10,826 nucleotides of DNA. It comes from Nanobdellota archaeon (GTDB lineage: Archaea > Nanobdellota > Nanobdellia > Pacearchaeales > GW2011-AR1). How positions within the stretch are numbered: position 1 is the stretch's first letter; every line of letters starts with the position of its first letter. The stretch covers positions 1 through 10,826 of the forward strand of contig JAHJUA010000016.1 in assembly GCA_018829425.1 (NCBI GenBank). The letters are read 5' to 3'. Below, one piece after another: positions 4,453-6,429 of this stretch. The notes under the pieces are model-generated. The model was not told the origin of the DNA. It was given only the letters and a program-made list of their open reading frames with translations, and searched no databases. Both the position numbers and the translations under genes were made by a program.

Positions 4453-4512
4453 CCCAAATCTTTAAGTATTTATCACTGCTTCTTAAAAAATTAAGGGGTA
4501 GACGGAGCTAAA

Positions 4513-4560
4513 TTGAAAATTCAAATAAATAAAGGGAAGTTGACGGTCAAGAAACCGTAG
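4513..4560 (+). CDS. Possible upstream reading frame in the spt5 leader
   Basis: From a TTG at 4513 the leader reads 15 codons, (M)KIQINKGKLTVKKP, to a TAG at 4558-4560. That stop overlaps the Shine-Dalgarno of spt5. The last 11 residues are the same as in the frame before rpo12 (6228-6281), because the DNA there is identical. The non-ATG start and tiny size make translation uncertain. The shared frame is the only argument for it. Confidence 0.25.
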   Translation: MKIQINKGKLTVKKP

Positions 4561-4573
4561 GTGTCTTACCATG
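4523..4573 (+). promoter_or_regulatory. Shared structured leader, copy 1 (before spt5)
   Basis: These 51 bases, ending with the spt5 ATG, are identical to 6244-6294, which end with the rpo12 ATG; identity stops on both sides. In order they hold an A/T stretch, GGGAAG (4534-4539), a hairpin ACGGT/ACCGT (4543-4547 with 4554-4558, loop CAAGAA), a Shine-Dalgarno AGGTG (4559-4563) and CTTACC (4565-4570) just before ATG. GGGAAG can pair with CTTACC (five of six positions), closing a fold that holds the Shine-Dalgarno inside. This suggests translation control, perhaps autoregulation, shared by two RNA polymerase-associated genes. Confidence 0.8.
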
Positions 4574-5026
4574 TTTTTTATTATAAAAGTAACAACAAAC
4601 AAGGAAGAAGCAGCAGTTGACATGATCTCTGACAGAGTAGAGAAAAAGTCAATCGGAGTAAGCGCTGTTCTTCGACCTCACGGACTTAGAGGTTACATTC
4701 TTCTCGAGGCGGACGACAGAGAAAGCGCAGAGGACGCCGTTTTCAATCTTCCTTATGTAAAAGGAATAATCGGAAAAACAATCGGCTATGAAGAAATAAA
4801 AAATATGGTTGAACCTTCAATCAAAGTAGTATCAATTGAAGAAGGCGACATAATTGAAATAATCGGCTCGACGCTGAAAGGCGAAAAAGCAAAAGTTATA
4901 AGAATAGACAAACAGAAGGAAGAGGTAGTTGTGAACTTGCTCGGCGCTGTCATCCAGTTGCCAGTAACATTAAATATCGACAACGTCAAAGTCATAAGAC
5001 GTGAAGGAGACGAAGATGCAGATTAA
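4571..5026 (+). CDS. spt5: Transcription elongation factor Spt5 (archaeal NusG)
   Basis: Spt5 binds the RNA polymerase clamp, raises processivity and couples transcription to other machinery. The 151-aa product has the archaeal NGN-KOW form. The NGN domain covers about residues 1-85 (MFFIIKVTTNKEEAAVDMIS at the start; LRPHGLRGYILLEADD inside), and the KOW domain about 88-145 (IEEGDIIEIIGSTLKGEKAKV). The ATG is the right start because the protein begins as the family does, and an AGGTG Shine-Dalgarno precedes it. The end of the gene overlaps the uL11 start by 11 bases. Its 48-base leader is identical to that of rpo12, another RNA polymerase-associated gene. Confidence 0.95.
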   Translation: MFFIIKVTTNKEEAAVDMISDRVEKKSIGVSAVLRPHGLRGYILLEADDRESAEDAVFNLPYVKGIIGKTIGYEEIKNMVEPSIKVVSIEEGDIIEIIGSTLKGEKAKVIRIDKQKEEVVVNLLGAVIQLPVTLNIDNVKVIRREGDEDAD

Positions 5027-5696
5027 ACTATTAGTTGAAGGCGGAGAAATGAAACCAGGTCCAGTTCTTAGTCAGAAGCTCGGCCCTGTAGGAATCCCTA
5101 TGAATCAAGTTCTCCAATTAGTCAACGATGCGACAAAAGATTTCAAAGGAATGAAAGTCCCAATCGAAATTGAAATTGACCCTGCAACAAAAGAAATGTC
5201 AGTAAATGTTTTTTCTCCTCCAGCGTCGGAATTGATCAAAAAAGAATTGGGTATAGAAAAAGGTTCGGCAGACCATAAAAAAGTAAAAATGGCGAACGCT
5301 TCTATTGAACAAATAATTTCTGTGGCAAAAACAAAAATACCAAATCTCCTTTGCAAGGATTTGAAGGCAGCTGTTAAAACCGTTATTGGAAATTCAGTAA
5401 GTCTTGGTATCCTCATTGAAAGCAAATCTCCTTCAGAAGTTATGGCCGAAGTTGAAGAAGGAAAATATGATTCTGAAATTTCACAGGAAAAAACAGAGAC
5501 AGATCCTGAAAAAAAGAAATCGCTTGCAGATTATTTCTCCACGGTTAAAACCGAGCAAGAGAAATTATTGAAGGCTGAAGAAGCTGCTAAAGCTGCCGAA
5601 GCTGCAGCCGCCGCCGAGAAACCAGCAGAGGGCGCGGAAGCAGAAGCCGGAAAGACGGAAGCAAAGCCCGAAGAGAAGAAAGAAGAAAAGAAATAA
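5016..5696 (+). CDS. rpl11: Ribosomal protein uL11 with a long charged C-terminal tail
   Basis: uL11 forms the base of the ribosomal stalk and helps regulate factor GTPases. I chose ATG 5016 (MQIKLLVEGGEMKPGPVL) because it matches the family start and has an AAGGAG Shine-Dalgarno about 6 bases before it; an in-frame GTG at 5001 is less likely. The start overlaps spt5 by 11 bases. Residues 1-65 are the N-terminal domain with the proline-rich PGPVLSQKLGPVGIP, and about 70-150 the rRNA-binding domain. The product is 226 aa, against about 160 for most archaeal uL11. The extra part, about 150-226, is rich in A, E and K (AEEAAKAAEAAAAAEKPAEG). It resembles the flexible tails of stalk proteins L10/L12. 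The usual next genes L1, L10 and L12 are absent here. Confidence 0.95.
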   Translation: MQIKLLVEGGEMKPGPVLSQKLGPVGIPMNQVLQLVNDATKDFKGMKVPIEIEIDPATKEMSVNVFSPPASELIKKELGIEKGSADHKKVKMANASIEQIISVAKTKIPNLLCKDLKAAVKTVIGNSVSLGILIESKSPSEVMAEVEEGKYDSEISQEKTETDPEKKKSLADYFSTVKTEQEKLLKAEEAAKAAEAAAAAEKPAEGAEAEAGKTEAKPEEKKEEKK

Positions 5697-5720
5697 TTGT
5701 ATTCTTTTTCCAAGTAAAAA

Positions 5721-5731
5721 CATTTATTAAT
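5721..5731 (+). promoter_or_regulatory. TATA-like box for tRNA-Pro
   Basis: The AT-rich CATTTATTAAT lies about 29 bases before the tRNA start, a plausible place for its TATA element. A short T-rich tract after the uL11 stop (about 5697-5709) could end the preceding transcript. Confidence 0.35.
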
Positions 5732-5754
5732 TACCTAAAACCTTCACTATTCAA

Positions 5755-5827
5755 GGGGCTATGGGCCAGTCTGGTAAGCTTCGAGGTTTGGGACTTCGCG
5801 ACCCCGGTTCAAATCCGGGTAGCCCCA
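5755..5827 (+). tRNA. tRNA-Pro (anticodon UGG)
   Basis: All arms can be drawn. The acceptor is GGGGCTA with TAGCCCC and discriminator A5827. The D arm is GGCC/AGCT with loop AGTCTGGTA (one mismatch at 13-22 and a G-U pair). The anticodon stem is CGAGG/CTTCG with loop TTTGGGA, giving anticodon TGG at 5789-5791. The variable region is CGAC, and the T arm is CCCGG/CCGGG with loop TTCAAAT. The length is 73 bases with no intron and no encoded CCA. UGG reads CCA and, by wobble, other proline codons. The 3' end (5815-5828) is repeated at 5928-5941. Confidence 0.95.
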
Positions 5828-5941
5828 TCGGATACCCGCAAACAAAAAGGAGGGGTTACTGTAAGGGGAACCTTTCGTTTGACATCTTGGCGAACGAGAG
5901 GGAACGAGGTGAACTCGGTGCCCCTCACCGGGTAGCCCCAT
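5815..5941. repeat. Direct repeat of the tRNA-Pro 3' end
   Basis: CCGGGTAGCCCCAT occurs at 5815-5828 (the T-stem and acceptor 3' strand of tRNA-Pro) and again at 5928-5941, 113 bases apart. Duplication of a tRNA 3' end is the mark left by integrases that target tRNA genes. The segment between is too short for an integrase gene, so it would be a remnant or a small non-autonomous element. Alternatively the second copy is part of a separate tRNA-like RNA. Confidence 0.75.
5852..5940 (+). ncRNA. Candidate structured tRNA-like RNA after tRNA-Pro
   Basis: No known RNA family was recognised, but the fold drawn by hand is strong. A 7-bp closing stem is GGGGTTA (5852-5858) with TAGCCCC (5933-5939), followed by an unpaired A as in a tRNA acceptor end. 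An 11-bp hairpin pairs 5871-5881 with 5891-5901 around a 9-base loop, with two G-U pairs. A 7-bp hairpin pairs 5914-5920 with 5926-5932 around loop CCCCT and abuts the closing stem as a T arm would. AGGGG at 5864-5868 could pair with that loop as a pseudoknot. There is no T-loop consensus and no clear anticodon arm, so it is not an ordinary tRNA. It could be a decayed tRNA copy, a stable small RNA or a remnant of an integrated element. Confidence 0.45.
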
Positions 5942-5949
5942 TTTACAAA

Positions 5950-5969
5950 ATTTTGCATCAAGGCAAAAT
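5950..5969 (+). repeat. Inverted repeat upstream of the L37Ae gene
   Basis: ATTTTGC (5950-5956) and GCAAAAT (5963-5969) are perfect inverted copies around a 6-base loop. It lies between the structured RNA and the likely TATA box of the L37Ae gene. It could end the upstream RNA or act as an operator near the promoter. Confidence 0.35.
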
Positions 5970-5978
5970 CTTAAAAAC
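5970..5978 (+). promoter_or_regulatory. Possible TATA box for the L37Ae gene
   Basis: CTTAAAAAC is centred about 30 bases before the ATG at 6004. It is a weaker match than the other boxes here, but it is the best candidate in this spacer. Confidence 0.35.
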
Positions 5979-6003
5979 CAACTTCGTGACTAAATAATAT
6001 AAC

Positions 6004-6231
6004 ATGGCATCAAAACTCAAGAAAACGAAATCCGCAGGGCGCTTCGGCGCACGATATGGAAAAAGAGTCAGGGCAAAAATTGTCTCCGTCGAATCAAACC
6101 AAAGAGTTAAACAGAAATGTCCTTTTTGCGCAAAAGTAGGAACTAAAAGAGTTTCAACTGGAGTCTGGCAATGTTCCAGAAAAACATGCGGAAAAAAATT
6201 CGCGTCGGACGCTTACCATCTAAAAAAATGA
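6004..6231 (+). CDS. rpl37ae: Ribosomal protein eL43 (L37Ae)
   Basis: eL43 is a zinc-ribbon protein of the large ribosomal subunit. The 75-aa product begins MASKLKKTKSAGRFGARYGK, the family signature for the basic N-terminus. Zinc ligands are C39-x2-C42 (CPFC) and C57, C62. The second pair is spaced C-x4-C (WQCSRKTCG) where the family normally has C-x2-C, and the usual GGAY motif reads SDAY. The ribbon is therefore slightly unusual, though all four cysteines remain. The stop TGA overlaps an ATG at 6228 (ATGA) that opens a short frame leading into the rpo12 leader. The order L37Ae, Rpo12, prefoldin is a known archaeal cluster. Confidence 0.94.
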   Translation: MASKLKKTKSAGRFGARYGKRVRAKIVSVESNQRVKQKCPFCAKVGTKRVSTGVWQCSRKTCGKKFASDAYHLKK

Positions 6232-6281
6232 TTAAAATGAAAAAAATAAATAAAGGGAAGTTGACGGTCAAGAAACCGTAG
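6228..6281 (+). CDS. Possible 17-aa leader peptide between L37Ae and rpo12
   Basis: The frame MIKMKKINKGKLTVKKP starts at an ATG overlapping the L37Ae stop (ATGA), a classic coupling geometry, and ends at TAG 6279-6281. The stop overlaps the TAGGTG Shine-Dalgarno of rpo12. A terminating ribosome would therefore sit on the rpo12 start region. The last 11 residues are shared with the frame before spt5. The peptide is basic and ends lysine-lysine-proline, and proline before a stop is known to slow termination. Whether it is translated cannot be told from sequence. Confidence 0.3.
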   Translation: MIKMKKINKGKLTVKKP

Positions 6282-6294
6282 GTGTCTTACCATG
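6244..6294 (+). promoter_or_regulatory. Shared structured leader, copy 2 (before rpo12)
   Basis: These bases are identical over 51 positions to 4523-4573, offset 1721, including the hairpin ACGGT/ACCGT (6264-6268 with 6275-6279), Shine-Dalgarno AGGTG (6280-6284) and CTTACC directly before ATG. Here the copy lies 12 bases after the L37Ae stop with no clear separate promoter upstream. It is therefore probably an internal leader in a polycistronic message, and the shared function should act on RNA rather than on transcription initiation. The A/T stretch at its start could however serve as a weak TATA element. Confidence 0.8.
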
Positions 6295-6429
6295 CCAACC
6301 TACAAATGTTTTACGTGTGAGAAAAAAATTCTGAGCGCAAATCTTGAAAAGCGATTCGTTTGCCCAAATTGTGGCAGCAAGATTTTTTACAAGCCAAGAA
6401 AAGTCGTTAAAAAAATAAAAGCTATTTAG
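6292..6429 (+). CDS. rpo12: DNA-directed RNA polymerase subunit Rpo12 (P)
   Basis: Rpo12 is a small zinc-ribbon subunit of archaeal RNA polymerase, matching eukaryotic Rpb12, and helps hold the Rpo3/Rpo10/Rpo11 assembly platform. The 45-aa product (MPTYKCFTCEKKILSANLEK at the start) has C6-x2-C9 and C24-x2-C27 and ends with the conserved basic tail KVVKKIKAI. The motif CPNCGSKIFYKPR is diagnostic for the family. Length is normal. The start is fixed by the Shine-Dalgarno AGGTG in the shared leader. Prefoldin beta follows after 17 bases. Confidence 0.94.
   Translation: MPTYKCFTCEKKILSANLEKRFVCPNCGSKIFYKPRKVVKKIKAI

Follow-up and report, generated by a model that had tools for sequence, protein, structure and literature searches.

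Why should the genes spt5 and rpo12, which stand apart in a 10,826-nucleotide stretch of the genome of a Nanobdellota archaeon (contig JAHJUA010000016.1; this whole stretch is called the window below), be preceded by one and the same leader? Direct comparison shows that the 51 bases at positions 4523-4573 recur unchanged at 6244-6294, each stretch with ATG as its last three, and that the flanking bases differ (C/A on the left, T/C on the right), which bears out an identity that an initial annotation of this DNA had described as ending in the start codon and breaking one base to either side. When 200 dinucleotide-shuffled versions of the window were searched with a 24-base core of the leader, allowing up to three mismatches, it never matched. 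That annotation suspected a common RNA-binding regulator of the transcription machinery. We favor another answer, to which we give a probability of roughly 0.7: the leader is a mobile, non-coding hairpin mini-element of Pacearchaeota-like archaea, one subfamily of which supplies a translation start.

The element has a core of about 37 nucleotides, with longer and nested forms of 60-76 nucleotides, and reads, towards the gene, AAGGGA.GTTGA.NNG.TCAAGGAACC.loop.GGTTCCTTAC, so combining a hairpin H1 (arms TTGA/TCAA) with a hairpin H2 (arms AAGGAACC/GGTTCCTT). On the plus strand of the window, an A-type element of the mRNA subclass occupies 4532-4570 before spt5, where R1, a covariance model built from 34 hand-picked copies and run with strict filters, matches 4532-4569, to which a C is added; the identical copy before rpo12 occupies 6253-6291. 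In the spt5 copy, H1 (three bases between its arms) spans 4540-4550 and H2 (AAGAAACC/GGTGTCTT, with a GTA loop and one A.G mismatch) spans 4549-4567, and a Shine-Dalgarno (SD)-like AGGTG at 4559-4563, seven bases before the ATG, overlaps the 3' arm of H2; its counterpart, again seven bases before the ATG, lies at 6280-6284 in front of rpo12. Of the genes themselves, both on the plus strand, spt5 (4571-5026) is secure, its product scoring 131.9 bits against the curated cut-off of 69.95 for TIGR00405, with PF03439 also above cut-off, whereas the name rpo12 (6292-6429, 45 amino acids) is a best match only: the leading NCBIfam models are those of RNA polymerase subunit P (Rpo12), at 38.3 against a cut-off of 89, and the gene follows rpl37ae, a position that we take to fit Rpo12.

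The evidence for a folded element lies in H2, whose arms show compensatory changes across copies. Cells changed on both sides number 17, against 4.3 in shuffles (0/500 reaching that value) and at most 8 in slid versions of the pairing; among 31 sequences of several subfamilies there are 22 such cells against 7.7, with a maximum of 17 in 1000 shuffles, the sequences aligned for covariation and for the model being hand-picked throughout (sets of 34, 23 and 31). The subfamilies of genomes G016 and G041 carry matching arm changes, for example AAGGGAACC/GGTTCCCTT and AAGAAACC/GGTTTCTT. Covariation of a terminal inverted repeat, AAGGA...TCCTT, was not beyond shuffles. The extended forms found before tRNAs and in RNase P RNA have, by eye, an extra upstream hairpin, CCTTGAG...CTTAAGG, and ATCAG before the hairpin. 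Wobble pairs give G.T 14 versus A.C 2 in 48 copies and 10 versus 4 in a wider hand-chosen set, and given the latter count they are too weak for naming the RNA strand.

The sharing implied by the initial annotation, restricted to two genes, gives way to a genome with many more copies. In the window's own genome (G000; 545,105 bases, 115 contigs, 77.7% complete), a 71-base query finds 8 places, a 19-base pattern with up to three mismatches finds 13 (reversed control 0), and R1 finds 22. Among the 19 of these 22 matches that were listed there are 15 separate loci matched over the full length, one nested second half and three palindromic reverse matches. Context classes, assigned by eye, divide the 15 loci as follows: six are leaders ending one base before an ATG, five lie 0-3 bases before a tRNA (His, Thr-TGT, Leu-AAG, Gln, Asp), three sit on the opposite strand inside tRNA introns at position 37/38 (Arg-TCT, Lys-TTT, Thr-GGT), and one is intergenic, behind a weak Rpp30 match. 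The six genes are spt5, rpo12, a PF18894 metallopeptidase, a gene that we take to be pheT, partly by assumption and partly from a sub-cut-off Pfam match over its first 60 residues, and, with one copy nested within another in the leader, rps24e and a DRG-like GTPase (DRG, like aEF2 and aIF2-beta below, being a name that we presume from a Pfam domain). Similar leaders precede two further tRNAs of this genome, Arg-CCT and Cys (anticodons partly by eye). Nested composites precede rps24e, DRG, ndk, locus L042 and a tRNA-Thr, and mergers occur also at L320. The element is, in short, hairpin-forming, non-coding and present in many dispersed copies, as palindromic mobile mini-elements are.

Beyond this genome the distribution is patchy. 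In a set of 56 genomes that includes G000, R1 matched 30 at E<=0.01 and 16 at E<1e-5, and the number of matches in a single genome ranged from 0 to 46; since each genome was searched at E<=0.01, a few of the weak genomes are expected by chance. The 19-base pattern with up to two mismatches occurs in 8 of the 56, with 12 copies in G000, 15 in G005 and 14 in G034, the last of another family than G000, and is absent from 7 of the 10 other members of the genus; its reversed control gave 6 matches in 5 genomes, so that an isolated match, like the one of G019, which by eye falls in coding sequence (L027), probably arose by chance. A stricter pattern of 26 fixed letters occurs in 18 of 200 genomes of the order, its reversed control in none. 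The named relatives are mostly metagenome assemblies of Nanoarchaeota, Pacearchaeota and Woesearchaeota. The search of the genome and its relatives that the initial annotation had proposed for the leader thus found recurrence before start codons, together with many copies at tRNAs, in introns and in RNase P RNA. A known Rfam leader, riboswitch or guide RNA was set aside for want of a convincing covariance-model match: no family matched the element positions in the window at E up to 5, and at four loci with tRNA leaders the only row overlapping a leader was a weak MIR946 (20.5 bits, cut-off 190). A viral origin was likewise dropped, the one exact pattern match in viral contigs lying, by eye, in phage coding sequence and being taken as chance. 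Searches of open-licence papers brought up no account of this element from DPANN archaea.

Orthologous sites in close relatives are found both with and without the element. The spt5 site is empty in the closest relative (G005, L083; Spt5 96% identical), where ...AAATAAA stands directly before the ATG, and a scan of 80 named spt5 neighborhoods with R1 turned up nothing strong in front of spt5, the sole match there being weak and diverged (L125). The rpo12 copy, by contrast, is common to G000 and G005/L083 and occurs also in L103; among the matches listed, it is not in G001 or G008, both closer by Spt5 identity. At the pheT site G007 is empty and the element is absent in G005 and G008; other empty sites are those of the metallopeptidase (G007, G001), rps24e (G007, G008) and the DRG-like GTPase (G007). 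Conversely, the element precedes ndk in G005, whereas ndk of G000 overlaps its upstream gene and leaves no room for it. Four tRNA-Lys genes (one in G003, two in G008, one in G002), some of which may be paralogues, are intronless where G000 has the element. Most inspected empty sites show an A-rich stretch before the ATG. On its simplest reading, the spt5 copy would be a recent gain, transferred perhaps from an rpo12-like leader via the shared AAATAAA...ATG flanks.

Copying, which the initial annotation had called the dull alternative, therefore does account for the spt5/rpo12 pair, because the closest relative lacks the copy at spt5. Gene conversion or segmental copying confined to these two leaders, with no wider family behind them, would moreover explain why the exact 51-base identity takes in the A-rich flank; the many diverged copies in the genome and the order refute it as the whole story, and we regard it in that form as extremely improbable, while it offers a good account of the origin of the spt5 copy itself.

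What one subfamily may bring to a gene emerges from 48 copies gathered with a pattern that required the 3' arm. Twelve of them are single elements directly before a protein start, and in 9 of these 12 a GGTG in the 3' arm places AGGTG seven bases before the ATG, as against 3 of the 36 other copies with GGTG at the same place (Fisher P 2.3e-5, with relatedness ignored and the orthologues L002/L046 and L004/L034 counted separately). Five of the 36 are inner parts of nested elements before ATGs, and three tRNA-leader copies with a chance adjacent ATG (L014, L164, L250) were moved out of the mRNA class. Our best reading is that this subfamily supplies its gene with a ready-made translation start, in a leader that would be transcribed and with an SD-like motif that ribosomes would use. 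Across genomes, ATG-abutting copies of any subclass precede genes for TFB, S12, aEF2, aIF2-beta, SRP54, Sec61-beta, S24e, NDK, SMC, an SPP-type protease, pheT and others (some of these names being presumed). A diverged leader, type 'E' (GAGAGGGAAGGTTACGCGAAGGAAACCGTAGGTGTCCTCGC-ATG in L111), was also seen before rpl37ae or spt5 in other genomes (L111 5691-5709, L102 5701-5719, L125 3721-3739).

The copies at RNA genes are as varied. Opposite-strand copies in tRNA introns recur in other genera (L302, L303, L305, L308, L309, L312, L318, L321), and near-identical intron sequence occurs in different tRNA genes at the canonical position; the element is not confined to introns with bulge-helix-bulge junctions, being found also in leaders, RNase P RNA loops and intergenic copies. 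In nearly all inspected gene-adjacent copies the end TTAC (CTCA in the B type) points to the gene. By eye, many tRNAs of G000 appear leaderless. The tRNA-His leader (L014, L164, L310, L307) holds a possible open reading frame (ORF) of 8 codons in four genomes, MESALSQS, MESVLSQS or MESGLTQS by eye, which is absent, again by eye, in G001 and G007. The RNase P RNA of G005 contains by eye one B-type copy and one 60-base A-type copy, and that of G034 two copies head to head; the insertions coincide with loops or poorly matching parts of the RNase P model, and the enlarged genes (L246, about 394-470 and 640-700; L038, about 1485-1565) score 74.2 and 64.2 in Rfam against a gathering score of 84. On L038 there is in addition, at 7-170, a weak group I intron match in the large-subunit rRNA gene of G034 (28.7 bits, gathering score 50). 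Loss of RNase P as the cause of the tRNA leaders was rejected, since most of the 21 genomes screened match both its RNA and Rpp30. The RNA is matched in 16 of them, 13 scoring above cut-off; the matches of G005 and G034 stay below it, and G000 shows none. Rpp30 is matched in 15, with 10 scores exceeding the cut-off and that of G000 weak.

Several copies are flanked by duplicated tRNA ends. In the window, tRNA-Pro (5755-5827) ends in CCGGGTAGCCCCAT (5815-5828, plus strand), the first copy of a 14-base duplication; downstream, on the same strand, lie a B-type relative (AGGAGGGGTTACTGTAAGGGGAACC...) with further hairpin sequence (5844-5927) and, behind it, the second CCGGGTAGCCCCAT copy (5928-5941). 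The arrangement resembles a target duplication. Such duplications, mostly of 14-18 bases and judged by eye except in the tRNA-Pro case, also occur at Lys and Ser genes of G000 and in L023, L300, L317 and L330; those of L023 and L300 each have a one-base gap, and that of L028 is about 55 bases long. B-type hairpins were further noticed downstream of tRNA genes at L265 and L268 (contigs C84 and C57 of G000), the C57 tRNA having a 3' end duplicated by eye.

These observations can be joined into a mechanism in which the element would spread by DNA-level copying within a genome, its copies would persist where their RNA is tolerated (in leaders next to start codons, in tRNA 5' leaders, inside tRNA introns, lying on the opposite strand, and at variable loops of RNase P RNA), and the subfamily with AGGTG seven bases before the ATG would hand its gene a complete translation-start region. 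A number of results weigh against a mobile element. The proposed covariation check on the leader, positive for H2 with its two-sided changes above shuffles, was negative for H1, in which 97.1% of cells are paired and yet none covary; the spt5 leader alone folds no better than shuffles (z -0.59, 56 of 200); and no target duplication was seen at ATG-abutting copies. G000 and G162, of two genera, share an identical 66-base stretch as their tRNA-His leader, while in the same pair the first 34 bases of tRNA-His differ at 10 positions and the upstream region is clearly different, which counts against a purely selfish reading because a freely jumping element does not predict it; function or recent transfer could be the reason.

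The remaining difficulty is the choice of genes. In several genera, gene-expression genes predominate among ATG-abutting copies, and across the 80 spt5 neighborhoods (599,533 bases) R1 gave 16 rows at E up to 0.5, all of which were inspected. In 8 of these the match adjoins the ATG of a gene that could be identified, with rpo12 and rpl37ae counting three each and spt5 and a diphthamide synthesis gene one each. Two of the eight, both rpo12, are strong by score; the other six are weak by score and convincing by position. The genes rpo12, rpl37ae and spt5 thus take 7 of 8 matches, against about 17% of the ORFs there (P 3e-5, a rough value from an approximate ORF count that ignores common descent); left out of the count were L142, where the match is truncated, the ATG comes five bases later and no gene was identified, and rpo12 of L111, seen by eye. 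On these grounds the ATG-abutting copies might instead be a cis-regulatory leader, an SD-holding hairpin through which a common RNA-binding protein, or folding itself, sets translation and tRNA maturation, with patchiness reflecting fast rewiring of a regulon; the copies before TFB, aEF2, aIF2-beta, S12, SRP54 and Sec61-beta elsewhere, the fixed spacing of AGGTG and a tRNA-His leader better conserved than tRNA-His itself all speak for it. The same subfamily, however, lies in an opposite-strand tRNA intron (L040) and before a tRNA (L005), the gene sets differ in close relatives (spt5 in G000 only, ndk in G005 only), predicted folding is weak and no regulator was found, and we consider such a leader unlikely. 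The initial annotation's interpretation is thus partly supported: the bias to gene-expression genes and the exactly spaced SD-like motif speak for it, but the element does not belong to the transcription machinery alone, and the opposite-strand tRNA-intron copies, the RNase P RNA loops and the absence of the spt5 copy from the closest relative tell against shared regulation, which survives as a secondary possibility because the ATG-abutting copies favor gene-expression genes. There is a bolder idea, which we think unlikely: a mobile hairpin with its own ribosome-binding site would be a portable cassette for translation start and RNA maturation, and by jumping would have linked spt5, rpo12 and TFB with ribosomal proteins, translation factors and tRNAs in a single growth regulon that acts after transcription.

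Nor did the search for a mover favor the mobile mini-element. Copy number is not tracked by PF01797 (Y1_Tnp/TnpA), which is missing from the element-bearing G003, is a sub-cut-off fragment in G000 and is present in G005 and G034, while G009 and G032 have 5 and 8 Y1_Tnp matches against 1 and 0 R1 matches; Cas1 was found in 5 of 56 genomes and in none of the element-rich G000, G005, G034, G016 and G041, the screened genomes being incomplete. The small palindromes would suit a miniature inverted-repeat or palindrome-associated element whose mover was a casposase or the TnpA of an IS200/IS605 element, and the 14-18 base duplications at tRNA ends presumably resemble casposon target duplications; with G003 carrying elements and no Y1_Tnp, G009 and G032 showing the reverse, and Cas1 absent from those five genomes, both candidates were rejected as movers and we think this origin decidedly improbable.

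A separate hairpin, CTGCTTCTTA...TTAAGGGGTAG followed by ACGGAGCT, lies at 4476-4509 of the window, between secE and spt5, and occurs before spt5 in many Pacearchaeota. In 23 leaders, hand-picked as those where the hairpin was visible, 5 cells change on both sides, compared with 1.0 in shuffles (0/500 reaching), at 89% pairing, but one slid version (-2) has 7 such cells at 40% pairing; it is possibly a conserved leader of the spt5-rpl11 operon.

The mobile mini-element suggests that a half-megabase genome of a supposedly streamlined lineage has been colonized by selfish-looking hairpins in its most essential genes, among them tRNA genes, genes associated with the polymerase and, in relatives, that of RNase P RNA. 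The case can be used to ask how reduced genomes come to keep mobile DNA, by what route they gain tRNA introns and whether a mobile element can bring a ready translation start with it, and anyone annotating DPANN genomes should allow for it at leaders, start codons and tRNA introns.

Among known systems, the bacterial REP, Correia/NEMIS and Rickettsia palindromic elements are short, palindromic, dispersed repeats, some of them co-transcribed with genes; we know of no fixed start-codon junction in these, and we set them apart by their general description, not by sequence. Yeast mitochondrial GC clusters (GC42) and mitochondrial hairpin-forming repeats are likewise non-coding, about 40 nucleotides long and marked by selected hairpins (PMC4478555, PMC2800124); they also share with our element sporadic gain and loss, composite mergers and some copies in RNA genes, whereas ours is archaeal, abuts start codons and tRNA ends, enters tRNA introns and has an SD-like subfamily at fixed spacing. 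Archaeal tRNA intron transposition also places similar introns in different tRNA genes, the canonical position included (PMC4090602), but the present elements occur outside introns too, before ATGs and tRNAs and in the other orientation. The disrupted tRNA-Thr of Caldiarchaeum likewise involves an intron gained by a tRNA, together with a 5' fragment of a tRNA next to a putative mobile element (PMC3293823); there the element is 1.8 kb long with a predicted recombinase, here tens of bases and non-coding. The present element differs from these systems in its lineage, in joining start codons and tRNA ends at an exact position, and in its SD-bearing subfamily.

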